NCBI GenBank assembly: GCA_008704415.1
Contig: VXIS01000081.1
Span: 88,374-152,373 of the forward strand
Length of the DNA: 64,000 nt
Source of the DNA: Sphaerosporella brunnea
Lineage: Eukaryota; Ascomycota; Pezizomycetes; Pezizales; Pyronemataceae
Direction of reading: 5' to 3'
A program made the position numbers and the translations under genes. The notes under the pieces were generated by a model, which worked only from the letters and a program-made list of their open reading frames with translations, was not told the DNA's origin and made no database searches. Below are positions 1 to 63,303 of this stretch, piece by piece. How positions within the stretch are numbered: position 1 is the first letter of the stretch; every line of letters starts with the position of its first letter.

Positions 1-155
1 GCGAGCAGTTACACTTGCAGACATGGCAGTCTTCCCAACTGCCACGTCTGTAAGTCACGCCCCGGATCGTGGAAGGCGCAGCCTGTACTGGCTGCAGAAG
101 GTTTTGCTGCCACGGCAGCCTTTGGAGGGCCTTTGATTTAGGTCCTTTTGACCAT

Positions 156-844
156 GTACGTTATTTAGCTTCGATCGATTTTACAGTGTTGGACTAATCA
201 TTCCTCAGGGACCCCCCGCCCTCCTACGGTATCACGGATGGCGGTCTGCCCAACCGCCATCCGTGCAAGTCCCACCACGAATCGTGGAAGGCGCAGCCTG
301 CAGTGGCTGCAGAAGGTTTGCTGCTACGGCAGCGTTGGAGGCGTTTGACTTGGGTCCCTTCGACCATGTACGTTATTTAGCTCCAATCGATTTCACAGTG
401 TTGGACTAATCATTCCTCAGCGACCCCCCGCCCTCCCTACGATATCATGGATGGCAGTCTTCCAAACTGCCAAGTTTGTAAGTCCCGCCACGAATCGTGG
501 AAGGCGCAGCCTGTGCTGGCTGCACAAGGTTTTGCTGCTACGGCAGCCTTTGGAGGGCCTTCGATTTAGGTCCTTTTGACCATGTACGTTATTTAGCTTC
601 AATCTATTTCACAGTGTTGAACTAATCATTTCCTCAGGGACCCCTCGCCCCCCCCTCCGGTATCACGGATGGCGGTCTGCCCAACCGCCATCTGTGCAAG
701 TCCCGCCACGAATCGTGGCAGGGTGCAGCCTACAGTGGCTGCAGAAGGTTTTCCTGCTATGGAAGTCTCTGGAGGGCACCCCTTCGACCATGTAAGTGAT
801 TTGCTTTCAATCTATGTTATGGTGCTAGACTAATATTCCGACAG
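156..844 (+). repeat. Tandem units each holding an intron-like block
   Basis: About four units of 208-218 bp. Each has an exon-like block of 154-163 nt, beginning GGACCCC and ending CGACCAT or TGACCAT, followed by an intron-like block: 156-208, 368-420, 584-637 and 792-844 (53-54 nt). These blocks have GTACGT or GTAAGT donors, a GGACTAATC-type branch site and CTCAG or ACAG acceptors. The block 209-367 is open for 53 codons in one frame and 638-791 is open in another. The copy at 421-583 has an extra C and shifts frame, so the array as a whole does not give one consistent protein. It looks like a decayed gene that grew by exon+intron duplication. A fifth, partial copy follows at about 870-960. 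Direction is inferred from the splice signals only. Confidence 0.55.
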
Positions 845-949: not shown

Positions 950-1980
950 TTTATTGCTACGTGGAAGGGCGCAGTCTGTTCTACTGCGCCCTTCCACGTG
1001 CAATAAGTTCTATTGCTATGGTAGTTTTTGGAGGGCATTTGCCCTGGACCCATGTGGCGATCCCGGTGGCGTTCTTGATACCATCGGGCTCGTCCAGGGT
1101 GGCGTTCTTGATACCATTGGCGCCTCAAGGGGCGCGGAAGCTATTTTCTTCCTATCAGGACGCTCCGTCGTCTTAGACATAGCCCGGCCAAACCAAACAA
1201 CACCCCGGCTGCTCTCACGTGGAAGGGCGCAGTCTGTTCTACTGCGCCCTTCCACCGGTGGCGTTCTTGATACCTCATCAAGGGTCACGGAAGCTATTTT
1301 CTTCCGATCAGGACGCTCCGTCGTCTTAGACGGAGCCCGGCCAAACCAAACACCACCCCGGCTGTTCTCACGTGGAAGGGCGCAGTCTGTTCTACTGCGC
1401 CCTTCCACCGGTGGCGTTCTTGATACGGACGAGCCCATTGGGCTCGTCAAGGGTCACCAGGAATGGCGGCGCGGCGGCCTGGCTTCCACAAGTACTGGGA
1501 ACCCACCAGCATCAATCGCTGTGGGTTCCCAGGAGGGGTAAAGGCGGCGCGGCTGCCTGAGCTTCGCCAAGCACTGGGAACCCACCAGCATCAATCGCTG
1601 TGGGTTCCCAGGAAGAATGAAGGCGGTCAAACCAAACAACACCCCGGCTGCTCTCACGTGGAAGGGCGCAGTCTGTTCTACTGCGCCCTTCCACCGGTGG
1701 CGTTCTTGATACCATTGAGCTCTCAAGGGTCACCAGGAATGGCGGTGCGGCGGCCTGGCTTCCACAAGTACTGGGAACCCACCAGCATCAATCGCTGTGG
1801 GTTCCCAGGAGGGTGAAGGCGGCGCGGCGGCCTGGCTTCCACAAGTATTCTTGATACGGACGAGCCCATTGGGCTCGTCAAGGGTCACCAGGAATGGTGG
1901 CGCGGCGGCCTGGCTTCCACAAGTACTGGGAACCCACCAGCATCAATCGCTGTGGGTTCCCAGGAGGGGTGAAGGTGGCC
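950..1980. repeat. Mosaic repeat array built of perfect hairpins
   Basis: Several short modules recur in shuffled order. Module A (961-997, 1219-1255, 1372-1408, 1658-1694) is a perfect hairpin with a 15-bp stem (GTGGAAGGGCGCAGT) and a 7-nt loop. Module B (1496-1531, 1575-1610, 1772-1807, 1927-1962) has an 11-bp stem (TGGGAACCCAC) around a 14-nt loop. Module C (1428-1448, 1859-1879) is a 21-bp near-perfect palindrome on GACGAGCCCA. Linking stretches such as GGTGGCGTTCTTGATAC also repeat. A 195-codon open frame at 954-1541 (+) runs through the modules but its peptide only mirrors the DNA repeats, so I do not call it a gene. Confidence 0.8.
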
Positions 1981-2449: not shown

Positions 2450-4050
2450 AATGCAATATGAAGAAGTAAAGATTAACAAATAAAGAAATGACATCGTCCC
2501 GATATACCAAGGGCCCAAAAAGAGGATCTGAGCAAGGCTCCGTGGTGAGAAACACGACATATGTTGACTAAACTGAACGCGGTTTCTCCTTGGTAGGCCG
2601 AATAGCCTTGCTCGCCAGTACACACCGTTCAAACACTGGACCTAGGTGCTTTCCCCTAATGGCCAGTTCAAAAACGTCTACCACGATATCACCAAAAATG
2701 GAGCTTTCCCCAATACCGGTTATACCATGCGAGGAGGATTAGGTTACTGCTGCGTGTGTGAGGTTTTGCGGTTTGTTTGTTTGTAACCAGGTTTACTGTC
2801 TGTGTGCGACCTCTAACGGTGATGACAGACGTCATTTCGTGCAAAATTCGCGGGCATCTGAAGCATTCGCCGTTCGTTTATGTATTTCTCCATTCGATAT
2901 CATGGCTATATAAAGTAGAGCAGATACAAGACGACGTGAAAACATGAAAAAGACACAGGTAGGAAAGCAGCATGAAACTAACAAAGGAAATACGTCTCAT
3001 GGCTGGGCACAGGATGTGTCCCCACGCCCAAGAGCATCGTCGAATGTCGGGATAAAGATCGCTATCGGATATGACGTTTGGAAACGCCGTCACGAGACTG
3101 TTCTGGCGAATCAGAAATGAGGCAAAATTGTGCAAATTTGAACCCTGCGAGTATGAGGATCTGCCATAGTCTAGTTAGGCTGCATGCGGGCATTAAACTT
3201 GACTACACGCACACACACACAGGCTATGTACGGTATGGGCGGCAAGTGGTACCTCGATAAGCCCCTCATGTGGATCAGGAACCCCCTGTATAGGTCTTCA
3301 TCTGCCATCCGCTATCGGGGTTACGTACCTATTCCTTCCCCTTTGCCAAATTGAACATTTCGGAGATCGACAGACCAATTGTGGTGGAGAGCCAGAGCAA
3401 TGCACAGGCAATGATCAACGCCATATTCAATCCTTTGTCGACCGAAGGGTGCCTTAAGAAGATTATAGCCGGTGCCTCAACTTATGCATTCGGACCTATC
3501 TGATGCTTTAAGGTTAGCTACGATGTATAAACACGATCGGTGGACCTGAAATGTGCGGTTGATACCTTTGTCTCCCAGCCTGTTCAGATATGGGATGATA
3601 GAACCAATCACCCCCACGCTTAGAGCACAGGTAAGGATTAGAACCATCCTGTGTCTGCCCTTCGGTGGGGACCCTAAGTGCTCAGTCATAGCGTCCCTCG
3701 CGATATCGACAATGGTTTCCGCCGCGAGTAGTAGTCACCATATAAAGATTGTTTCCGTCGGTTGCGAGTGGCAGCGGTCTCGTTTGCGGTAGACGATTCT
3801 GCAACCAAGAGCATCCATCAAAACAATAGGATTTCCACATGCAATTACCTAGGTACGCACCTACCTAGTGAGCAAAAACCAGCTTAATGGAAGAGTGTGA
3901 TGATAGCATGGGGCATTTCGTATTGGTGTATGATTGGCAAATTCGTTCCATTTTGATTGTGAATGGCAACTGGCGGTGCCAGGCAGCCACGTAGCGATGA
4001 ATGAATGCCCGGTAACATCTTTCCGTCGCAAGAATATGTGGTTGTGGTCG
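2450..4050. other. No gene recognised
   Basis: Only short frames without recognisable domains. A short CA dinucleotide tract lies near 3210-3222. Nothing else is supported. Confidence 0.5.
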
Positions 4051-4062
4051 TGGTTGTTGTGT

Positions 4063-4070
4063 TATATAAG
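4063..4070 (+). promoter_or_regulatory. TATA box (TATATAAG) of the coiled-coil gene
   Basis: TATATAAG lies about 390 bp upstream of the preferred ATG at 4455. A candidate 5'UTR intron starts with the strong donor GTATGT at 4182 and may end at CCCCCAG near 4268, which would explain the distance. Confidence 0.45.
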
Positions 4071-4454
4071 CGTCGTTCGCCACTGCGGGTACAGTTCACA
4101 ATTTTAGCTCTGCTGCGATGCTTGGTGTTATACCGCAGCCATAGGGTTTGAAGAAAGGGCCGTTCGAGTGAACAACTGCGTTGTATGTTTTGGGGGTGGT
4201 GGGGTTCAACCAGTTGTCTCTTGACCTGCTGCCCGCATCTTTTGCCCTTACCCCTCCGCTTCCCCCAGCATGTCGCCTGTGTACAGAAACAACGCCACCA
4301 CCAAGCCTCTCCCCGCAGCATTCCGCCTTTGACTCTGCTGCACCCTGCGAACGCTGGTCCGAGCACATCGCTGCAGAACATTACCAGCTTCCGCCATAAC
4401 AAGTACGCCCCTGCTGCTCGTGCTTTCGAAGTCGAAGGATCTGAACCGGTCGGC

Positions 4455-5225
4455 ATGGACAACCGCGACTCCTCCGCCGCCTACAGCCCCGAAGCTAATG
4501 TTTCCGGCTCCAACTGTGGCCTTGGTCACTCCGCGCCGGCGAACTGCGGTTCCGCTGCTACCCAAACCTCCGGTTTCACCAGCAACGTCGAAGTTCGCCA
4601 GTGTCACCAAGACAGCAACGACACCCACCAGGCTGCCGGCGCCTCCGCCGCCAGTTACCGTTCAGCAAACGACGTTTGCATGGCCGAGGCCCGTGGGGTT
4701 GAGCTGGACGAGAAAGCCGCCAAGGCTCCGGAAATCCTCAAGGAACGCCTGAACTCTTTGTACAGAGAAAACCAGGCGCTCAAAGCTTCGATAGCTGATT
4801 TCAAGATCTGCGTGGCGATCAAGGACCAGGCGATTGCCACGGCCCAGGAACAGTTGGCTCGTCAGAAGCAGGAGACGGTGCTTTGGAAATCGTACGCAAA
4901 GGGCCTCCAGCAGAGGATGGGTATGGCTGAGGCGGAGTCGACAGATCCCAAGGAGCGGGAGAGACAGCATTCGACTGAGAGCGGTGGCAGTGAGCGGAAC
5001 CCCCAGGAGCAGCCTATGCACGATTCGGCTGGTACTGAGTATTGGAAGAGGCACGCGTGGAACCTGCATCAGCGGATTTCTGAGCTTGAGTTCGAGTTGG
5101 CTCAGTGCAATGCTGCTGGTGGTCAGGCTGGCGGTAATCCGGCTGGTGGTGGTCAGGACCAGGTTGTGCACCACATCAACAACTACTACTACAACAGTGC
5201 ACCCCCGGGAACCCAGTCCATGTGA
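4455..5225 (+). CDS. Coiled-coil protein of unknown function
   Basis: A 256-residue protein if translation starts at the ATG at 4455 (MDNRDSS). The frame is open back to 4185, but that 5' part overlaps a likely 5'UTR intron (GTATGT donor at 4182), so I prefer the inner start; a longer protein remains possible. The N-terminal third is Ser/Ala/Asn/Gly-rich and probably disordered. A charged heptad-like stretch around residues 80-160 (LKERLNSLYRENQALKAS, then further Gln/Glu/Lys-rich sequence) is predicted coiled coil. A second short helix (residues about 195-222, with RISELEFELAQ) precedes a Gly-rich linker and a Tyr/Asn-rich end (HHINNYYYN). I recognise no catalytic domain. The continuous frame of 347 codons, TATA box and amphipathic segments support a real gene. 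The product may be a structural or oligomerising protein; this is inference. Confidence 0.6.
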   Translation: MDNRDSSAAYSPEANVSGSNCGLGHSAPANCGSAATQTSGFTSNVEVRQCHQDSNDTHQAAGASAASYRSANDVCMAEARGVELDEKAAKAPEILKERLNSLYRENQALKASIADFKICVAIKDQAIATAQEQLARQKQETVLWKSYAKGLQQRMGMAEAESTDPKERERQHSTESGGSERNPQEQPMHDSAGTEYWKRHAWNLHQRISELEFELAQCNAAGGQAGGNPAGGGQDQVVHHINNYYYNSAPPGTQSM

Positions 5226-5229
5226 GGTA

Positions 5230-6469
5230 CTGTTCCTCCGATGGTTTCTACAGAGCGATATTCCATTTTCGGGCGAAGCTGTCGGTTTGTTGTGCTTGCG
5301 GCATAATGGGTTTTGCGTTGTTTGTTCTTTAGCATCTGCGGAATTGGCGGGTTCTGTTGGTGATTGAGAATGATTGCTTGAAATTCATCGGTGTATCTGT
5401 GGTATTTGATGGTCTTTCCGTGCGCGTTGTGTAGTGTGCTGTCGCGATTCACTTGCGGCAACCTATGCTCACCTTTCTTACTTGACTTTGCAACCTCCCG
5501 GTTGCAAAGGATTGAGCGAAGTTGTACCTGGCTGGTTTATTCCTTCATTACTGCCTAACAAATGACGAGAAATCCTCTCTGCTGTGTACAAAAGGGTTCG
5601 TTTTACACACAAAGTAAATAGCCGTGTTCAGCTAGGTATATCCCAACAGAACCTTCCAACACCTTAATTATAAATTATACGAATCCAGCTCCTCTGTCCA
5701 CCAACCCATATATCTTTCAATTCCATGAACTCATCTGTCCAACCAAACTTTTTCAATTGCGTTGTGGCGGAGTTCTTACAGCTCCAATATGGGGCATTTT
5801 TGGCAAAAGCAGAAAACTTTTTTTCTCTGACTGCGCGTGTAACTGAGTATACATAGGGCGGTATTTGACTAACAGCTTCTTCGCAGTTGTAGTTTCCTCC
5901 GCCGTAAGGCGTGCAGAGTACCAAGCACACCCGTGACAGACTTTCTGAAGCCTATACCTTGCTCTTCCTCTGCCAACCGTAATGCTGGTATATTTGTGCG
6001 AAGAATTGTCGCGGCAGAAGCGACTATTCCCCTATAAAACGATGCGAAAAGGAAAGAAAGATGCGAATTCCAGACTTTGTAAACCTATTTCCATGTAATC
6101 CTGCGCGGCACGTTCCTTATGATTACCTTGTCAAGATTTCCGCCTGGAGGAGTATTTCTCATGGGGATTAGCTTACGAAAAGGTGGTCAAGAGGCCGTCG
6201 GCCTGATATCACATCCCTCCAACTCCATGGCATGTCTCAGCCGGTGTAATTACTTCGCATGATCTACTCATATCCATCATTTTCACGACAATTTCAATCT
6301 TTGTTGACGGATGAATCAACGATTTGCTTGCCTTGAAGGGAATACGCAACCTGCCATTTGCAACTCTTCCGCTGTGAAACGCACGCAGGCTCACTCGCCG
6401 GGTGATCGCCGATGATGTCGATCCCGCGAGGCGCGGCAACATCCGGAACTCCGTGTCTGAAATCCGGGG
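5230..6469. other. No gene recognised
   Basis: Short frames only. A minus-strand frame at 5664-5930 has no recognisable domain. The stretch ends at the TA target site of the transposon. Confidence 0.5.
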
Positions 6470-6471
6470 TA

Positions 6472-6497
6472 CTGTAGCGAGCAATGAGGTACGTACG
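6472..6497 (+). repeat. Left terminal inverted repeat of the transposon
   Basis: Begins CTGTAGCGAGCAATGAGG directly after the TA at 6470-6471. It is an exact reverse complement of 10041-10066. Confidence 0.9.
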
Positions 6498-6690
6498 TCA
6501 CCTGTCACCCGGGGGTCTCCGTACGTTATTTTTCGCTGTCACCAAGGGGTCAGTACGATGTTTTCAGACCGTCACCTCTGTGGCACGTGGCGGTGCGCCG
6601 AGTGATACCTTGTGAAAATGCGACGCGAAGCATCCGACGCACGCTTTCTCTTTCTACCCAGCGGCGCCGCGTAACAGTGAACCAAGTTAT

Positions 6691-7242
6691 CTACATTCTA
6701 GAAGCACGCTCATCCGCCCATGCTGCGCCGCTTTCATCCTCCGCCTCTGGTTCCTCCTCATCTAAATAAATGTCGTCCTCTTCAATCTCCCGGTACCTGA
6801 CAGCTCCCCGGCCACCAAAGCGGGTGCTTCTACGAAAGCCCGGAGGCAATTCCACCTCCAAGACTTTTTTCTCTTCGTCCTCTCCTCCTTCCTTATCCTG
6901 AGTAGATACAGCAGCTGATGCATTCCTAGCTACTAAGAGTTGAGCTGCATGGAAGGGGTCTTGTGGAAGCTTGGTTTGAGGAGCAGCCGGGTGTCACGGC
7001 GCGAGTTTGGATGGAGTTTTCCGACTAAGCTACCGGCTTTTACTCTCAATGAAATCGGCTGGAACTCTCAGATCTAAGGCTTCAAAGGATGCTGATTCAT
7101 TTGCTGTTCTCAAATTTACCCCCCCGTTGATGGTTTTCACGTGGTGAGGTTCGGAAGTGGGGGTTGTTTGTGGTGTCGTGATGAGGCTCTGTAGGGGGAC
7201 TCGGTGGGGTGGCTCCGAGCCGAGATTATATTCGGCTACCAC
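6691..7242 (-). pseudogene. Second frame of the transposon, two in-frame stops
   Basis: Read on the minus strand, one frame runs from 7242 to the stop at 6691-6693 but is broken by a TAG after ESKSR and a TGA shortly after TPSKLAP. The first part holds Thr/Pro-rich sequence (PLQSLITTPQTTPTSEPHH), resembling the tail region that follows the catalytic domain in fungal pogo transposases. The last part is strongly acidic (YREIEEDDIYLDEEEPEAED) after a basic patch (FRRSTRFGGRG). It might be a former C-terminal extension of the transposase, a separate accessory frame, or an exon pair with an unseen intron; I found no donor/acceptor pair that restores the phase. Confidence 0.4.
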
Positions 7243-7499
7243 GTGGCGCGGCGCACCGCAGTCACGTGATTGCTATAAGGGGCCTTCGCTTCCGCTTTGT
7301 TGTTTGTTTTCCCTTTCCTCTTTACTGAACCTTCGTATGTCAATCTGAGTACCTTCGTTCCAATCTGAATCCTGACCGTGCGCATCGCGCCTCTTGTCCT
7401 GCCTCTTGTCCTGCCTTTGGATCTTGTCCCAGCTCTCGTTCTTGCCCCCTCTGTACGCGAGTACCTTGGGCCCCTCCAGTCTGTTCTCGACCCTCTCCG

Positions 7500-9828
7500 T
7501 TACACCGGGGGGGTTAAGGCGACCAGTTCGATAACTTCTAACGGGACGTCCTCTTCATCCTCAAGTTCATCATCCTCCTCCTCTTTTTCTAGATGTTCTT
7601 CAACTTCTGCTGCTGAGAGAAGATCGACATTGTTTCCTTGGATGCTCTTGAGAAAACTAACAAGCGTTAGCCTAAAACAACAGAGTAAAGTGAGGCGGAG
7701 CAGCTTGAGGTAGCGGGAAATAATGGGGAAAGCACCAGGTGGGCAGGGGATGATGGGGAGAGTGTCAGGCGGGCAGGGGATGGTGAGGAAAGCGCTAATT
7801 GGGCTGTTAATACATACTCTGATCCACGTTGAGACATGATGAAGACGGATTCAGCACTGGAGATGCATTCCCAGGAAAGGTTAAATGCGCCGACCCGACA
7901 GTTCTTCCAAGCTTTGAGGACAAGTTCTGGACGTGAGTTCAGATAGTCCACAGCCGCCATAACCCATTGCGGGGTCTGATTTCTTAAGGTGGCCAATTTT
8001 GTAGAGAGCTCAAGCTCTTCGACCGGAACATCTCTTGCCAGCTGTGACTGGATTTCCCCGATAAAAAATTTACTTGCTTCTTGCCGAATGATGTGTTTGA
8101 AAACGCGCTGCAACCCCACATCGCACGGTTGGAAAACAGCTGGGCACTCGTCAGTTGTTGGTAATAAAAAGGCGTTGGGACCCCTTACAGGTACAGTTGG
8201 CCGGAACAAATAGCGGAACAATAAACCTGAACTGTCGGAGCCATTCCTGGAGTGCAGTGCTTCGGTGGACCGACCAACAGTCAAAATAAACAATAACCTT
8301 TGCATTTTTGGGCAGGCCATGCTCCGCTATCATACGCTCTCGATAGGGTAATAAAATCTCCTCAAACCACTGTTTAGTAGTGGTAAGATTGCTCCAATGC
8401 TTTGTAGGGTTTAATACAAAGCGGTGTCCCTTTTTCGAAGCTAGGTCACGCTCGCTGTCTTGGTTTAAGGGATCCATGGAAGGTAGCGAAGCTTGGGTTT
8501 TACCTTTATGAACGGACTGGGTAGGAAGAACTGTACCATTCATAGCAGTCGCCAAAACACACGTAAAGGCACGTTTTTCTTCCTTTCCATGCAGAAGGAC
8601 TTGCTTGGAGCCTCGCTCCTCATAAGTCCTTTGTGAACCCCCGGGGACCAACACTACGCCAGTTTGGTCCACATTGACAATGAGACTAGGGTGAATCTTC
8701 TCTTGAAAGACGGTATGAACCAGGCGGAAAAACGCTTTGTCACAGTCAAGCTCCCAATTGGTCGCTAATTTCTGACTGGCTTTAGTTCCAGCACGAACAA
8801 CCCAATTGAGTTCTCGGCGAACGAATCGGCGTACGGTGTGGATTGATAGCTTGGGCGTTAGAGCAGACGTAGATGAGGCTGCCTGCAAAACATGCGGATA
8901 CTTCTGTTGAACGAAGCCGAGAATGATGTTCCTTGCAATGGAAGCGTTTACTGGTAATCCCAGCTTTCGTAAAGCTCGTAGCGCATGGGTTACGTCTGCA
9001 ACGAGCTGAGGTTCTTCGTCCAAAAGTAAAGCCTTGCCAGAATCTATCTCAGTTAGCTTATGTAGCTAGACAGAGGGTCGTTAGTTGTATACTCTTCTTC
9101 CAGCACAATCCGTCCTCAGTGGTAGATATAACTGCATCCGTCCAACGTCGTGAGACTTGAAATTTCAAGATCCATCCGGAGACGGTGCTACGACGAAGAG
9201 AATTATACGTGCCAGTGGTCCGATATCTCTGTTGAAGGTCGTCCACAATCCTTTGAGGATAAAACCCAACACGTCGGGCAGAAGCATCAATGGCGGGCCA
9301 TAATAATGGATGGAACCAGTTGATACGCTTTACTGGCGGTTGTGCATACGTAGGGTTAATAAGGTTTCCATCTTCATCACGCAGAGTTTTTGCTGTAACA
9401 CGCTGCCGTTTTTTGCGCTGAGCATTGGTTAACGCCGAGAGCGACTCTCCAGTCATCGTTGTTTGAACGTCGTTCGGAAGCTGGATAACCTTGATGAGTT
9501 TACCTACAGCAACGTCTGTTAGTGAGTACAAAAAAATCAAGTTGGCCACCCTTTCTATACCATCTGCATCTCGGATACCATCTTGTATTTGTTGTGCCTT
9601 TTTTTTTGCGTGGGTTTTCTTTTTGACTTCGGCATTTCGTTTTCTCTTCAGCTGCTTCTGGGCCTCTGCAGCTTCCTGTGCAATATGGGGTGGATGTTCT
9701 ATAGCCCAAGCAACTGCAGCATCCGCGGTAGCTTTCTCCATTTGCCGCTGCCAAATTTGCCTCTCAACTGGAGCAAAAAAGTCTTGGATCGATAACTGAT
9801 CACCTTCTGGCTTGGAAAGAACCGCCAT
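7500..9828 (-). CDS. DDE_1 superfamily transposase (4 exons)
   Basis: Join on the complement of 9093-9828, 9044 excluded, 8189-9043, 7818-8139 and 7500-7671, giving 694 residues. Introns: 9044-9092 and 8140-8188 (both 49 nt), and 7672-7817 (146 nt, GTATGT donor, TTTTAG acceptor). Start ATG at 9828 (MAVLSKPEGD). The N-terminal third is Lys/Arg-rich and helical. The catalytic core shows the first Asp in NVDQTGV, the second in YFDCWSVH, and the third in FQPCDVGLQRVFK. The third motif appears only after the 8140-8188 intron is removed, which also restores the family motif PANCTS. Spacing between the second and third Asp gives a DD36D triad, matching pogo/Fot-type enzymes. The last exon is acidic (EKEEEDDELEDEED). 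It would cut and paste its own element by binding the inverted repeats. If the last intron is not spliced, the protein would end at 7667 instead (687 residues). No frameshift or internal stop is seen. Confidence 0.85.
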
Positions 9829-34673: not shown

Positions 34674-34837
34674 CTTGCTGCAAGGAAAAGGCATACAACA
34701 AGATCTCCCTTAGACTTGCTGCAAGGAAAAGGCATACAACAAGATCTCCCTTAGACTTGCTGCAAGGAAAAGGCATACAACAAGATCTCCCTTAGACTTG
34801 CTGCAAGGAAAAGGCATACAACAAGATCTCCCTTAGA
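34674..34837. repeat. 41-bp tandem repeat, four copies
   Basis: Four exact head-to-tail copies of a 41-bp unit (starting CTTGCTGCAAGGAAAAGG), at 34674, 34715, 34756 and 34797. The array begins about 40 bp beyond the stop codon of the neighbouring minus-strand gene, so it probably lies in its 3' untranslated region or terminator. Confidence 0.9.
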
Positions 34838-34877
34838 CTGCTACTACCATTTAATAGGCTTCGGATCGAAGGCGTTC

Positions 34878-50537: not shown

Positions 50538-50860
50538 GTGAGACCTACGAGTACCGAGGTTGTTGTCGAATCCATCGACTGCGAACAATACGCATGCAGG
50601 GCCGCTTCAGACACGATCACCAACCACTCAATGCCCGGAGGACCCGGCTTGCCGTTCGGACATTACAAGGAACCTTTCTGGTTGATCGAGGGTTTCCACG
50701 TTCTCCGTGTTGACCCCCGTGAAAAGAGCTCGATGTTCCAAACCGCAGTGGTCACGATAAAGGTTCTACGCCATCAGGCTGAGAACGGGCATATGTGGAT
50801 CGACCCCCGCGACGAGGGGGAGTTCCTCATGGGGAGGAGCATATTTGGATTGACCCCCCG
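50538..50860 (+). CDS. Open frame of unknown function leading into a repeat
   Basis: The frame reads STEVVVESIDCEQYACRAAS, DTITNHSMPGGPGLPFGHYK, then EPFWLIEGFHVLRVDPREKS and VVTIKVLRHQAENGHMWIDP before entering the 50-bp tandem array. It has protein-like composition, but I recognise no domain. The array units are 50 bp, not a multiple of three, so the original C-terminus is lost. It may be the remnant of a gene whose last codons were amplified into the repeat. Confidence 0.3.
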
Positions 50861-51123
50861 CGAGGAGGGGGAGTTCCTCATGGGGAGGAGCATATTTGGA
50901 TTGACCCCCGCGACGAGGGGGAGTTCCTCATGGGGAGGAGCATATTTGGATTGACCCCCGCGAGGAGGGGGAGTTCATCATGGGGAGGAGCATATTTGGA
51001 TTGACCCACGCGAGGAGGGGGAGTTCCTCATGGGGAGGAGCATATTTGGATTGACCCACGCGAGGAGGGGGAGTTCCTCATGGGGAGGAGCATATTTGGA
51101 TTGACCCCCGAGAGGAGGGGGAG
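50795..51123. repeat. 50-bp tandem repeat array, about six copies
   Basis: Head-to-tail copies of a 50-bp unit (core GAGTTCCTCATGGGGAGGAG then CATATTTGGATTGACCC); one copy is 51 bp. Copies differ at a few positions (GACGAGG or GAGGAGG; CCCCG or CCACG). The array stops at the LTR, and a similar piece (ACTTCCTCATGGGGAGGA) resumes at about 51609, so the LTR interrupted it. Confidence 0.9.
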
Positions 51124-51605
51124 TGTAATATTATTACACTTACTATGATTTCTTCTTTCTTACGTATTTCCTTACTAAAGACATAAAACTACGTCACAGT
51201 AACGATGGTATGATGTCAGTATTCTACGATTTTCTTTACCTTTCTTTATTACGTCCTTTTGGAGCCTTCTAGCCTTCGCAAGGCAGACTTTGTAGGTCTT
51301 ATGACCATTCTTTCCTTGTTTTACGAATTTGCCACCCAGCTATGACTTCATGTTATGACATCATGTGCTCAGCATCGTTGGCTATAAAAGCTGCGAGCTT
51401 TTCCTGCATTCATTGTCTTCTCTTCTTTCGATACGGCCTTTCGAGCAATCCAGATTGTCTCGACTATTCTTCAATAAATATTGAGTTGATCAGTGACCTG
51501 TTTTCGAGTATCTTCTTGGTATTTATCAAGTCTGATACACAGAAGATTCTGAGGTTATTTGCATCTGTGAAATAGCGGATCTTATAAGCTCACGAAAAGG
51601 CTACA
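51124..51605 (+). mobile_element. Solo LTR of a retrotransposon
   Basis: A 482-bp segment starting TGTAATATTATTACAC and ending GGCTACA (TG...CA), flanked by GGGAG at 51119-51123 and GGGAC at 51606-51610, a nearly perfect 5-bp target duplication. It contains a TATA box (TATAAAA, 51383-51389) and a polyadenylation signal AATAAA (51473-51478), in the order expected of a plus-strand LTR. No internal retrotransposon coding sequence lies nearby, so it is a solo LTR left by recombination. It is unlike the visible 3' end of the Ty3/Gypsy fragment at 61-63 kb, so it is probably another family. Confidence 0.7.
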
Positions 51606-56534: not shown

Positions 56535-58222
56535 ATGTCAGAAACGATCCAGGGCGGCAACAGTAACGGGGAGCCCCCGGGCAATCCGATGCCCCCCCAT
56601 GCTTACCTTGCCACCTACGACAACCCGAACCCCACCCCAAGCGAAAACATTTGTAGTCATTGCCACTGTCTCATGGAAGAGAGCTACACTCAAGAGTAAG
56701 AATCAAGGCGTACGAACAGCGTTTGGTGCAACTAATTCTATGGTGTAGCGTTCTTGGGGCCGTGGTGAATGCTAGAGTTCGCAGTTTTCTGGCTCGGCTG
56801 TCCGAGTGCTTCGTTTGTTTTTGCCTAAAGAATCTCATTCGGGAGGAGGCTGTCAAGAACGTCGTTGATGGTTCATACGAATCCCATGCCTGTGCTTGGT
56901 AATCTTTCTTCCCGTCCGGTTTATTGTGCTGTTGATCTAATGCGCTGCGTAGGGTCAGAGCTGTCAAAATTCAACTCATGGTCTTGTGGGTGTCAACGGC
57001 CGACAAGCCAGAGGTAGCGCGCCTGTTTGTGTTGCCTGCGTACGGGTCCGCTGTAATTCAGTAACATTCCCTCGAGTCCAGTTTATTGTGTAGTTAATCT
57101 GATGCGCTCTGTAGACTCAATGAGATCAGAAGAGGCCTACTCGCTCGCTGGGCGTCGAAGGTCATTGAGAATGAGGCCAAGCGTCAGCAGCTCCAGCACG
57201 CGGTCCCTCGGTAATAGCCCCTGCAGTCCGGGTTATTGTTGGGCCGATCTAATACGTTCTGTAGGCCCAAACGTGACATCAACGCCCTCTGGGCGTCGAT
57301 GGCCGATGAGGAAGAGCTGAGGCTCCAGCGCGCGGTCCCAGCAATTCAGTACTAGCCCCTGCCGTCCGGTTTACTGTGTGGCTGATCTAATGCGTTTTGT
57401 AGGCCCAAACGTGACATCAACGCCCTTTGGGCGTCGATGGCTGATGAGGAAGAGTTAAGGCTCCAGCGCGCGGTCCCTGCAATTCAGTAGTAACCCCTGC
57501 CGTCCGGTTTACTGTGTGGCTGATCTAATGCGTTTTGTAGACCCAAACGTGACATCAACGCCCTCTGGGCGTCCATGGCCGATGAGGAAGAGCTGAGGCT
57601 CCAGCGCGCGGTCCCAGCAATTCAGTACTAGCCCCTGCCGTCCGGTTTACTGTGTGGCTGATCTAATGCGTTTTGTAGGCCCAAACGTGACATCAACGCC
57701 CTTTGGGCGTCGATGGCCGATGAGGAAGAGTTGAGGCTTCAACACGCGGTCCCCGCAATTCAGTAGTAACTCCTGCTGTCCGGTTTATTGTGGGGCTGAT
57801 CTAATGTGTTTTGTAGACCCAAACGTGACATCAACGCCCTTTGGGCGTCGATGGCTGATGAGGAAGAGTTGAGGCTTCAACACGCGGTCCCTGCAATTCA
57901 GTAGTAACCCCTGCTGTCCGGTTTATTGTGTGGCTGATATCATACGTTCTGTAGGCCCAAACGTGACATCAACGCCCTTTGGGCGTCGATGGCTGACGAG
58001 GAAGAGTCAAGGCTCCAGCGCGCGGTCCCTGCAATTCAGTAATAGCCCCTGCCGTCCGACTTATTGTGGGGCTGATCTAATGCGTTTTGCAGGCCCAAAC
58101 GTGACATCAACGCCCTTTGGGCGTCGATGGCCGATGAGGAAGAGTTAAGGCTTCAGCAGCTGGAGACAGAGAAGCAAGGGTACAAGCTTCAGGATCGCGA
58201 GATGGCAGCCCCTGGGATTTAG
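56535..58222 (+). CDS. Eleven-exon gene grown by tandem exon+intron duplication
   Basis: Exons: 56535-56695, 56749-56898, 56953-57060, 57115-57210, 57265-57348, 57403-57486, 57541-57624, 57679-57762, 57817-57900, 57955-58038, 58093-58222; 382 residues. All ten introns are phase 2; the first is 53 nt and the other nine are exactly 54 nt (donors GTAATA, GTACTA, GTAGTA, GTAACA or GTAATC; branch TGATCTAAT; acceptor GTAG or GCAG). Exons 5-10 are each 84 nt and encode near-identical 28-residue units beginning PKRDINALWASMADEEE and ending AVPAIQ. Exon 11 starts with the same unit and then diverges to a stop. Exons 3 and 4 are older, diverged copies (LLARWASKVIENEAKR in exon 4). The N-terminus has a CSHCHC motif in exon 1 and a hydrophobic, Cys-containing exon 2. 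The repeats are predicted charged helices. No known family is recognised. The upstream frame is open to 55968, so a longer N-terminus cannot be ruled out. Confidence 0.8.
57265..58176 (+). repeat. 138-bp tandem repeat: 84-nt exon + 54-nt intron
   Basis: Seven copies with a period of exactly 138 bp (exon starts 57265, 57403, 57541, 57679, 57817, 57955, 58093; the last has no downstream intron). Exon parts differ at few positions. Because the exon length is a multiple of three and the introns are all phase 2, each duplication adds 28 residues without disturbing the frame. Confidence 0.95.
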
Positions 58223-58224
58223 TA

Positions 58225-61200
58225 ATATTCTCTGGTCCATTCGACTAGCTGGGCAGTCTGTTCGCTAAAACACACTCTAGGATACTGACCAGACGATTCA
58301 TCTCAATCAGGTAAACAGGACCCCAAGGCAAATCAATACAAGCGAACAAATGGCGGAAAAATCAAACAACGGACTACCAAGCAAGTGAAATGTGATTTGA
58401 TTTTTTATTTTTTTTGGATATGCACTTGTACTGTTAAATTGTCATATATACTCTAGAGACATCAAAAAATTGCGTCGCACTCGCAGCCACATGGCAAACA
58501 GGATGGAAGCAGCATCGGAAGCCGATGGACTAGATGGTTCTTTTTTCGAGTGTCGCCTTTATTTTTTTCTTTTTTTGGTGGTCTCTACTAACATCCGGTT
58601 GTGAGCAAAGCAAGTAAGCAAGACTAGTACGTACAGGCTTATGATTTGGTGTCTTGTTTTGGGTTGCAATTGTTGAAACTCCATGACTCTCGTTCTCTGC
58701 AGTAACACTCTTCTCGACGTGTCTCATATTTTCATTACATGTTGGTGATGTTTACCGAACGGTCTGGCTTCCGCGCTGAGATTTGCCAAAAAGCCTGGCA
58801 AGTGGGCAATCCGCGAACTGACCGGTTAGCGGCCACGCTTACACCGCCGGCCAGGCGAACGGACTAGAACATATATTCCCTCCTGCCCGGTTTTTTATGC
58901 GCTTGAACTAATGCGTTCTGTAGGCCTGAGAAGGTCAAATGTAGCTTAGACACCCTGTGTGCATCGATTGCTGTTTGAAAATAGGTAGGATTACGAGAGG
59001 AAAGAAAGCAATATAGTACAGAAGATTCCTCCCTTATGGAGCGGTTCGACCGAATCATTTGCGTTCCGTTTACCGGCCCGCAGATACTTAGCGGGTGCAT
59101 TGCGTGACGCACCATGACCGGACAACCGTAAGGCCGAAACCCGAGATCCAACAATTGCCGATAGCCTCTATAAAGCGATCTCCGCTGAGTGAGAGTTCAG
59201 GAGTCAAGGTGTGTCGCTCTCTGGGGCGAAGGATCAGGACGCCATGCACAGTTGAATAGCAGAGACGGAGAAGGTGGGAGCCGGTATTGAGAAAGCTACC
59301 GATAGATATGGTACTTTAAACAAACCTGCTTCATGACGTCGTGTGCCGCCGGAGAATGCAACCTTTCTGATGACAGATTATCACAGTGATGATGAGTGAC
59401 CAAAAGGTAAGCAACCTCCATGAAGCCACGCATGTGGTTTGAGGGAAATCGTTGATACATCCCCCCTCCCCGCCCAAATCGCTTCTAAACCCATATCTAC
59501 ACCAATCTGCCAACCTTTTTTGGGCTCGTCCTGGATAAGTCGCTTGATAGAGTAACTGGATGAGAAGATTGAAAGCGGGAAAAGAGAGAGGAAAGAGGAG
59601 AGTATTCTGCGAGATGTGTGTGAATTGCGCCAGGAGGATGGGCGGATAAGCCACCTTATAGTAAACGTCTCCCTCAGGGAGTGGACAAATACCGTAGGCC
59701 CCATCCGCCTCCACCGGGGTGCCCGCACGTCCATCTCTTCCACCCAAGACTCCGACTCATCCACCTTCCATTCACCTACCATATACGACAAGTTTAGCCG
59801 TTCCTTGATGATCATTCCTACTTCCATCACCACTAAGTATCCTCCCCAACAGCCTGATGCACGCCGCCGCGCTTGGGCTTTATCCAGCAGATTAGTGGCA
59901 TGATCATGCCGGTCCGGCCACAGCAACCAGCTGCCTTCGGCCAGGCAAATTAAACACGGCGTAGTTAGCTAGGTCTTCCAGACAGTCACAAGTGGGGGTC
60001 TGTGTAAGATAGAAATGGGAGTGTTTAGGAGCTCAACCTCTCGAGCAAACCCTTCCAAAGGGACTGACTGCTCTAGTAATAACAGTCTAGTAGGGAAAAA
60101 TATCTATCCCTATATAGAGCAGTGGTGTGGCGTTTTCCGGTGGCGTTTACCGGAGGCTCAACTCAACCCGGTGGCGCAACCCTAATATTGTGGAGCGGAG
60201 CCGTGGAGGAGCTTTAGCGACGACACTGTGGAGCGACTGCACAGCCCTAATATTCTGGAGCGAAGCCGTGGAGGAGCTTCAGCGACGACACTGCGGAGCG
60301 ACTACGCTGCTGTACATACTGCTAGATTTGTAGATAGTTGTGGAATGGATTAGAATTGTCTTTATCCGTGCGAGTGCTGGCTATGAAGTGAGACGGTCTT
60401 GCCTCCTCGAACCCAACCCACTACCTCCTCTCTTTACTTTACTACTTCAACCTACTACCTCCTCCCTTTACTACTTTGCAGATACCTTCTGCCTCGCAAC
60501 GACCTTTTCCCTCGCAACCAATTGAAGAGTTCTCCTTCTGGAAACCGGGAAAGCGCTATAACATGTGTCATGGTTGCAGAGCACGTGTTGCTCGAAGAAC
60601 AGCAAATGCAGCTCAACATGAGCCGGTCTGTGGCTGGCTCTAAATTCTTATACGGGGTAGAATATAAAGGCCAATGGTGTTCTTTAGATAGAGGTTGAAC
60701 GACAGCCCAGTCAACAACGGAGAGTTGGAACACTACAAGGTGTGGGAGCAGATAATCAGCCACTGTTTAAAGAACATGATGTGAGAGATGTCACGGATGA
60801 TGCATTGGCTATGGATCAACAGTGGGAGCATACTGCACCCCCTCCGAGTCAGTCTGTGGATGAAACTGCGCACCGCAGAAACTTCGGTCGCTCTGGGCTT
60901 GCCGTTACAGAGTTTTCTTTCGGGAAACCTGGAGTATCAACATTCGAGAGGTGTTTACTCATTGGCAGTTATACTTTGCTCTGTCCTGTGCAACCAGTGG
61001 AGAACGAATAACTGTTCGAACGCCAGAGACAGTATCAGGGTGTGATAGGCTGTGCAGGAATGTGGTATTCAGGGAGGTATTTGAGAATTGATGGGGCATT
61101 TTTTGCTGAATGGGATGAGTTGGGATGTTCGCAATTTTTTTTTTTTTTTCAACTGCACTGTGGCTGACAGCTTTTTTTTCGCGCGATGATGGAGTCTTCA

Positions 61201-61701: not shown

Positions 61702-63303
61702 CTAGTCTTTTTCCTCCTTCCAATCATCTGCCTCGAAAACCGTGATATCCACTGCTCCGTCTTCTACCTCCATTACCCATGCTTGCCTTTTCCGTCGTTT
61801 GCGCCGGGGCCGTGTTTTTGCCTTCTCGGCTGCCAGTACACGCTGCAACTCCTCATCCGCAGCCTGAAATTCCTGCAGTATCTCCGTTCCACCGCCAGTA
61901 AACATCTCTGCTGGCTCCCACGTCAACTCCTCATCGTTTTCCCATTTTACCTTGTACTCGATCCGTCCACCCTCATCCGGGTTTCGGCGCCATGAGCGAA
62001 TTTCCTCAACTCCATACTCTGCCTCAGGCTGTGCTTTTGCATGGGCTCGTGTGACGCGCAGTGCAGGAGCTGGTGCCTGCGGTCGTGAGTGATCAATGGT
62101 CGAGGGCTTGAGTGAAGCCACATTCTGAGTGCGTGCTATCTTCCAGTTCTTAGGCAATAGAACTTCAAACGCATTTTCACCGTGCTGCTTTCCAAGCTCA
62201 AATTCTCCGATATACTTCTGGTGTAGTACTTTACGGTGGTTATCGGTGTCGGTGGCATACGTGATTGGTAGGTTCTTTGCGGACAACAGAACTTTATCTC
62301 CTTGCTGAAAGGTATGTGGTTGTCGATGCTTGTTGGCTTCTGCTACTTGCTGTTCCTGCGCGTGCTGAAGATTTTGTCGTAGTCGACTAAGCGTGTTCAC
62401 CATTTCTGCTGCGAATGTACGGCCATCTGCCGGCAAATTCACCTGTCCGGGCCGACTCCTCAGACCTTCTCTACGGCTCCGTTCTTTTCCAACACTTGCA
62501 AGAGCATCAAGTGGCATGCGAGGGATGTAACCAAGATCAGCTTCAAATGGAGACATTTCGATCGACTTCTGCCGTGTTGCGTTGTATGCGAATTCTGCGA
62601 GAGCGAGCAGTTGATCCCATTCATCCTGGCGTTCGCCTGCATATGACCTGAGATATCGCTCAACAATCGAGTTTGCCTTTTCAGCCTACCCATCAGTCTG
62701 AGGGTGAAATGCTGTTGACATACGGAGCTTGGTATCGAATTCACTCATCAGGGTCTCCCAGAATGTTGATGTGAATCGTATGTCGCGATCGGAGACAATC
62801 GCATCCGGGAGTCCATGGTATCGCACGTAGTGGTCCCGGAAAATCTCAGCAAACTTTACAGCTGTCAGGTCCTTCTCCGTGGTCGCAATCCAGTGTGTAC
62901 GCTTTGTCAAAGCATCGATAATAGTGATGATGGTGTCATTTCCATCCTTCGTCACCGGTAACTTTGTAATAAAATCGATATTAATTCTCCGCCATCTCTC
63001 GTCCGGGGTATCCAAGGGCTGTAGGAGTCCGTACGGCTTCTGATTTGATGACTTGGTGCGTGCACATGTTGCACAGCCTTGCACATAGCGCTTCACTTCC
63101 TGATACATTCGCGGCCAAAAGAACCTTCGTGCAATTGTTTCGTACGTTCTGCTAAGCTCAAAGTGGCCTCCAACTGCCGCATCATGTGCCTCTCGAAGAA
63201 TGCGATACTTGATATCTTTTATCTGCGGGATGACCAGACAGCCAGTATGGTTGTGAATGATCATACCATCGTCCAAATGGTTGAGAATTGGGTTATCCTT
63301 TAG
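61702..63303 (-). pseudogene. Ty3/Gypsy (chromovirus) integrase region, truncated, one stop
   Basis: Minus-strand frame from 63303 to the stop at 61702. It contains the H2C2 zinc-binding region (HDAAVGGHFELSRT to GCATCARTKS), the integrase core (first Asp in NIDFITKLP, second in IVSDRDIRFTSTFWETL, Glu in the AEKAN motif after HPQTDG), and a C-terminal chromodomain (EYGVEEIRSWRRN, IEYKVKWENDEELTWEPAE). Gag, protease, reverse transcriptase and RNase H are missing upstream: sequence beyond 63306 is unrelated and an in-frame TAG lies at 63304-63306. One nonsense codon, TAG at 62686-62688, replaces the Gln of the HPQTDGQ motif (CAG to TAG). The rest of the frame is intact for about 530 codons, so the damage is recent. 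In a complete element this enzyme would insert the cDNA, with the chromodomain guiding to chromatin. Inactive here. Confidence 0.85.

Follow-up and report, generated by a model that had tools for sequence, protein, structure and literature searches.

A predicted orphan gene of Sphaerosporella brunnea carrying a head-to-tail array of in-frame exon-intron units

Arrays in which an exon and its intron are repeated as one unit have been published on a huge scale for the LRR genes of Tetrahymena, where 90-bp exons alternate with phase 2 introns. Unequal crossing-over was proposed for these arrays, and many of the genes are young and species-specific. An increase of intron number through tandem genomic duplication within a gene is also known (reviewed in PMC3443670, citing Hellsten 2011 and Gao & Lynch 2009). 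In fungi, the metallothionein AcMT1 of Agaricus crocodilinus, a cysteine-rich metal-binding peptide with ~50-bp introns, carries an internal duplication of a part of an exon along with the downstream intron (PMC12508003). SP7-like effectors of arbuscular mycorrhizal fungi are proteins of root symbionts with a variable number of imperfect repeats (PMC11333574).

Here we describe a locus of Sphaerosporella brunnea, an ectomycorrhizal member of the Pezizales (PMC6908789), which shares with the Tetrahymena arrays short exons of equal length, phase 2 introns and a repeat made of exon plus intron. In contrast to the ciliate genes, which encode LRR proteins, form very large families and often lie beside REP retroelements, it is a single orphan gene of an ascomycete with 84-nt exons and without an LRR match. 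It also differs from AcMT1, for which a single duplication was proposed, in being a seven-fold array. The SP7-like effectors begin with a signal peptide, and their first repeat is preceded by a conserved intron; the S. brunnea product lacks a hydrophobic N-terminus, and its gene has one intron per repeat. In the reviewed intron gain by tandem duplication a new intron is made from exonic sequence that carries AGGT, whereas in S. brunnea a complete intron is copied. De novo gain of the AGGT type was rejected for the added introns, since the intron is homologous as a block, splice signals included, between the old and the young copies. A pre-existing intron thus appears to have been multiplied together with its exon, with no new intron being created. 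The earlier note on this DNA had spoken of intron gain by segmental duplication caught at an early stage: duplication of whole units stands, and creation of introns does not. It had also said that it did not know of the gene family, which holds for the protein, for which no relative was found, and does not hold for the architecture with its precedent in Tetrahymena. The mechanism is already known, and the gene described here adds a new and unrelated case from a fungus. A fungal array of the same kind was not found among the matches listed for open-licence PMC papers, and the available portions of PMC8786786 and PMC3886924 do not mention intron-bearing repeats. Unusual are the exactness of the array (six 84-nt exons and nine 54-nt introns), the fact that the gene is an orphan and the way in which its young copies neighbour old and dead ones.

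The window is a stretch of 64 kb (C621:88374-152373), to which all positions below refer unless another record is named. The gene model, obtained by script translation, occupies 56535-58222 of the forward strand and consists of 11 exons (161, 150, 108, 96, six times 84 and 130 nt, the last including the stop codon) and 10 introns, all of which are in phase 2. Intron 1 is 53 nt long, and introns 2-10 are 54 nt long in nine of nine cases. Exon 1 (56535-56695) contains the start codon and 53 complete codons and ends in phase 2. It is followed by intron 1 (56696-56748) and by the 150-nt exon 2 (56749-56898), which is unique in sequence. Shuffling gave no sign of kinship of these two elements with the repeated unit (p 0.90 for the protein of exon 2, p 0.48 for intron 1 against the array intron consensus). 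The predicted spliced product of 382 amino acids is identical over its full length to the deposited hypothetical protein FN846DRAFT_906717 of S. brunnea, and this identity is the one outside point of support for the predicted transcription and splicing.

The repeated part starts with two old units, namely intron 2 (56899-56952, 54 nt) with exon 3 (56953-57060, 108 nt) and intron 3 (57061-57114, 54 nt) with exon 4 (57115-57210, 96 nt). Six young 138-bp units follow at 57211-58038, with 54-nt introns 4-9 starting at 57211 + 138n and 84-nt exons 5-10, a length divisible by three, starting at 57265 + 138n; their E-values in a unit profile range from 1.2e-46 to 6.5e-49. The seventh young unit (E 4e-44) is formed by intron 10 (58039-58092) and the terminal exon 11 (58093-58222 with the stop codon), where ~65 nt of young-copy sequence come first and 45 nt are additional. 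Tandem Repeats Finder reports 57211-58157 as a repeat of period 138 with 6.9 copies, 91% matches and 0% indels. The earlier description of seven head-to-tail 138-bp units, each of an 84-nt exon and a 54-nt phase 2 intron, is thereby reproduced.

The explanation which we favour, with good though not full confidence, is growth of the gene by head-to-tail copying of an in-frame exon+intron unit, of which about seven young copies are present. Since the unit is in frame, has equal phase at both ends and is equipped with a donor, a branch site and an acceptor, the array can gain or lose whole units with reading frame and splicing pattern intact. Whole units would be gained and lost by unequal crossing-over or replication slippage, and as such changes are harmless to the frame, the gene is free to vary in length, 28 residues at a time. 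In this reading the young units have exchanged sequence with each other, and the oldest copies, at the edges of the array (exons 3-4, the eroded 3' end and a dead copy downstream), have drifted or died, which is expected if recombination homogenises the middle.

The relations among the young copies are those of a mosaic. Units 5-10 are separable by 2-18 differences per 138-nt unit of exon and intron, and a copy often has its nearest match in a unit that is not adjacent to it. Introns 5 and 7 are identical, and the exons of the same numbers are 2 sites apart. For the pair 6 and 10 there are 2 differences in the exons and 7 in the introns; exons 8 and 9 are 3 sites apart. The four-gamete test is failed by 49 of 78 informative site pairs when the array is read as seven intron+exon units and by 25 of 66 when it is read as six exon+intron units. 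The large number of failures argues for a mosaic rather than a simple stepwise ladder, and its straightforward reading would be unequal crossing-over or gene conversion among the units; recurrent mutation could raise the count. As the same array results from any 138-bp frame, it does not disclose the register in which the original duplication broke.

The array is not uniformly young. A profile built of the seven young units and run across the 64-kb window with nhmmer recovers these units and three further strong matches. Two of them, 56907-57025 (E 7.3e-12) and 57062-57207 (E 1.3e-15), correspond to intron 2 with exon 3 and to intron 3 with exon 4, which the earlier note had rightly taken for older diverged copies on the 5' side. 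The third, 58875-58975 (E 1.4e-10), is a diverged copy that it had not listed; the next match in the window reaches just E 0.075. Identity to the young exon consensus over aligned bases falls from 77% in exon 4 and 71% in exon 3 to 58% in the dead copy, so "early stage" describes the seven units and not these older members. Of the aligned bases, 58 of 75 are retained in exon 4 and 60 of 84 in exon 3, beside 30 and 24 gap bases, respectively (protein shuffle p 0.0005 for each). Both exons exceed 84 nt by multiples of three (12 and 24 nt, respectively). Introns 2 and 3 match their consensus without gaps at 41 and 40 of 54 positions. The idea that old introns are more conserved than old exons was therefore rejected for substitutions, and it is only with respect to indels (0 versus 24-30 gap bases) that the introns are better kept.

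On the 3' side, the dead copy (58870-58975, with the intron pattern match described below at its 3' end) is separated from the stop codon by 0.65 kb. The intron-like block of this copy is identical to the consensus at 38 of 54 positions and has kept CTAAT and the acceptor without a GT donor; its exon-like stretch (48 of 83 aligned bases identical) contains an in-frame stop and yields a peptide weakly similar to the unit (shuffle p 0.0145). Closer to the gene, at 58205-58246, an alignable stretch runs from the last bases of exon 11 through its stop codon (TAG) into the sequence behind it; its counterpart is the junction of exon 10 and intron 10. The alignment score is 33, while 2000 shuffles gave a mean of 14.8 and a maximum of 28 (p 0.0005); alignment to the consensus tail and intron is weaker (score 25, shuffle maximum 32, p 0.006). 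Judging from this alignment, the 3' end of the gene itself is probably a relic of one more unit. The eroded end together with the dead copy indicates that the array was probably once longer on its 3' side.

In introns 2-10, 26 of the 54 columns are invariant, 15 of these 26 falling among the 34 core columns that lie outside donor, branch site and acceptor. The earlier statement that these three signals are kept in each copy does not hold in full. In intron 9, ATCAT takes the place of the CTAAT or CTGAT of the other array introns (with a CTGAT preserved further upstream), the +4 base of the donor is among the most variable intron columns (A, C or G), and G at +5 is found in none of the nine donors, which read GTAATC, GTAACA, GTAATA, GTACTA and GTAGTA. 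GTACTA, the donor of introns 5 and 7, occurs at 38 other places in the surveyed ~213 kb, in no case with a branch site and an acceptor at intron distance. The remaining array donors are enriched 2.4- to 3.6-fold with 3 or 4 cases each, as compared with 10.7-fold for GTAAGT. Given such weak donors, the predicted splicing may be inefficient. The altered branch motif of intron 9 precedes exon 10, the sole 84-nt copy with a leucine-to-serine change, which makes this the first candidate place for exon skipping. The length of exactly 54 nt, kept as claimed even beside diverged exons, is within the usual range of the genome: of 43 candidate introns with strong donors sought at 46-66 nt in the same ~213 kb, 28 measure 49-55 nt. 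The fixed length is read as constraint close to this usual size.

Coding of the repeats is suggested by the pattern of their differences. Exons 5-10 have 12 variable sites, 10 of which are synonymous; 22% would be expected if all single changes are considered (p 1.2e-5) and 32% for transitions (p 3.9e-4), these p values applying to sites which are not fully independent, as the copies are linked by descent and recombination. Mean pN is 0.015 and mean pS is 0.25. With 10 of 12 differences synonymous, the repeats look like a protein under selection. The mean intron-core difference of the young copies, 0.106, is below the synonymous value; counted as variable sites, the difference is 10 of 18 synonymous versus 8 of 34 intron-core sites (Fisher p 0.03, post hoc). 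An excess of synonymous over intron-core divergence is not predicted by a simple picture of neutral introns. Retention of any one of the 10 introns leads to a stop codon about 2 codons or less past the exon end, and when skips are modelled by joining a donor to a later acceptor, frame and stop are preserved in 42 of 45 cases. The synonymous bias, the in-frame exon lengths and the stops upon intron retention agree, as indirect evidence, with a translated and spliced gene; we infer that it is transcribed and that its ten introns are removed. RNA-seq data of S. brunnea are in public archives (SRP214822 and SRP215074, genome and transcriptome; PMC6908789).

No relatives of the product were recognised. 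When 5.8 billion proteins were queried with the complete sequence and with two parts of it (residues 1-175 and 100-260), each query returned the self match only, from 7992, 271 and 4757 candidates, respectively; these searches rely on shared 5-residue words, so distant relatives would escape, and in the whole-protein run only the candidates sharing most words were scored. The N-terminal part bears two equally spaced C-x2-C-x-C motifs, possibly metal-binding, in exons 1 and 2 (56652-56824; cysteines 40, 43, 45 and 74, 77, 79, i.e. residues 40-45 and 74-79). No hydrophobic 12-residue stretch is present in the first 40 residues as judged by hydropathy only (best mean -0.38). Each unit adds 28 in-frame codons and one intron as the earlier note had it, and the helix it ascribed to them fared less well: AlphaFold2 run on the single sequence gives a mean pLDDT of 47.3 (below 50 across most of the repeat region) and a pTM of 0.24, the short helices within the units being modelled at that low confidence, and the amphipathicity of a 22-residue unit stretch (0.66) does not exceed that of its shuffles (0.65, p 0.45). 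The protein might be an intracellular one in which an N-terminal cysteine-pair module is joined to a C-terminal multivalent arm, with binding strength or length scaling with repeat number; we put this forward tentatively, as our best guess, though short of a likely one.

The deposited protein has a precomputed label with Pfam PF02295 (z-alpha). The full protein indeed matches this profile at E 2.2e-9, with the best stretch covering profile positions 22-55 of 67, and two units match it at E 0.0037, under the curated cut-off. No match up to E 10 was obtained with the first 171 residues, with a lone unit or with one unit preceded by exon 4, and LRR families are absent from the five Pfam matches listed up to this value. 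A Z-alpha function was rejected, because the score sums weak repeat matches and the winged-helix domain is incomplete. The label is an example of misannotation caused by tandem repeats.

The most serious alternative is that the 138-bp repeat is a noncoding or dying minisatellite which gene finders have threaded into a chain of exons and introns, with no working gene behind it. The weak donors and the low-confidence predicted structure speak for it, as do the failure to find homologues among 5.8 billion proteins, the retroelement-like domains at 61.7-63.3 kb and a similar-looking, apparently broken sister array at 1-850 of the window. Yet such a repeat would hardly have 10 of 12 exon differences synonymous, nor one open frame through exons 1-11 with exons 3 and 4 (108 and 96 nt) departing from 84 by multiples of three, nor an intron length fixed at 54 nt in nine of nine cases. 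We consider a minisatellite unlikely, while keeping it in serious consideration.

Inflation of a smaller array during assembly is far less probable. Tandem repeats are prone to mis-assembly, but here the copies can be told apart individually by their 2-18 differences, unique exons and the dead copy flank the array, and the published assembly is based on long reads (PacBio with 10-kb libraries, Falcon, 907.91x stated; PMC6908789). Single reads from such libraries should span an array of ~1 kb made of distinguishable copies. The published assembly has 872 contigs and 51.6 Mb (PMC6908789) and the sequence analysed here 640 contigs and 50.6 Mb; we infer that the long-read method applies to the latter as well. 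A mobile, introner-like 54-nt intron inserted repeatedly at equivalent sites is the least probable reading of all: introner-like elements have been reported in fungi (PMC4457414) and nine similar introns do stand in one gene, but a 20-base pattern of the intron 3' end with up to 2 mismatches is found in 50.6 Mb at 8 forward and 0 reverse positions, all 8 at this locus, which is not the behaviour of an introner, and the exons flanking each intron are copies of one another, so that it was the unit that moved and not the intron alone.

Copying of whole exon+intron units within the locus therefore remains the reading to which we return. Other copies of the gene or unit were not found in the 640 contigs, where only the array locus was matched (DNA at at least 8 places, protein at at least 5 places). 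It would be a compact, single-locus case of gene growth by whole spliced modules, in which young copies stand next to old and dead ones, in a culturable fungus with public RNA-seq and long reads (PMC6908789). Copy-number change, the co-evolution of exons and introns and splicing among near-identical sites could be measured in it free of the very many paralogues which complicate the Tetrahymena case. It is not informative on the first origin of introns.

A second array is found in the same window ~56 kb from the 138-bp array. It occupies 23-777 (212-bp unit, 3.5 copies by Tandem Repeats Finder) and contains GT...CTAAT...CAG blocks of 53, 53, 54 and 53 nt (156-208, 368-420, 584-637 and 792-844), which separate exon-like stretches of 159, 163 and 154 nt; one reading frame is not maintained through them. 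A single diverged unit of this kind including most of the intron is present on another contig, C59 (record L042; 72% over positions 29-208 of 212). In that stretch a JmjC domain is encoded upstream (E 2.2e-9) and zf-4CXXC_R1 in the next exon (E 6.3e-5); the copied exon itself has no Pfam match. The second array resembles the product of a tandem duplication of exon and intron in a relative of the JmjC gene on C59, and it is apparently broken now.

The survey of arrays covered 212,822 bases in 17 records, the window included. An intron-like block was seen in 4 of its 35 Tandem Repeats Finder rows of period 60 or more. In two of the four, the 138-bp array and window 23-777, the block is of 54 or 53 nt; the other two have blocks of 87 and 102 nt on the minus strand (record L030, 1-1089, and window 1125-1426). 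Two arrays within 57 kb hint at a local or genome-wide tendency, while no rate can be derived from them, because the window was chosen for one of the two. A broader proposal would be that S. brunnea, at least here, readily expands exon+intron units, that its genes can change length by whole spliced modules, that such modules, in which a failed splice leads to an immediate stop and nearly any skip stays in frame, would allow one gene to yield a ladder of proteins differing in repeat number via RNA besides the one given by DNA copy number, and that Tetrahymena-style arrays have thus had a second independent origin; taken as a whole we regard it as rather doubtful.

Other repeats were observed in the surveyed records. 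Adjoining the second array, at 950-1980, are hairpin-rich repeats (e.g. CGTGGAAGGGCGCAG...CTGCGCCCTTCCACG) and tandem repeats of 78-153 bp. Positions 2756-9424 of record L027 (within C621:28374-38373) have arrays of 82, 69-70, 168 and 62 bp in mirror order at both ends of 6.7 kb, an arrangement like that of a large element whose inverted ends contain internal repeats. Arrays of 63, 97 and 374 bp in mirror order are also present at 1-4764 of L030 (contig C600, 10 kb), reflecting either an extensive palindrome or folding-back of the assembly. At 61702-63303 of the minus strand, some 3.5 kb downstream from the array gene, remains of a retroelement lie in two adjoining open frames; the integrase zinc-binding H2C2 and chromo domains score above the cut-off, the rve and Tf2-1-like SH3 domains below. 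Further tandem repeats, perfect or near-perfect, are located at 50789-51124 (50 bp, 6.7 copies) and 34674-34839 (41 bp, 4.0 copies).
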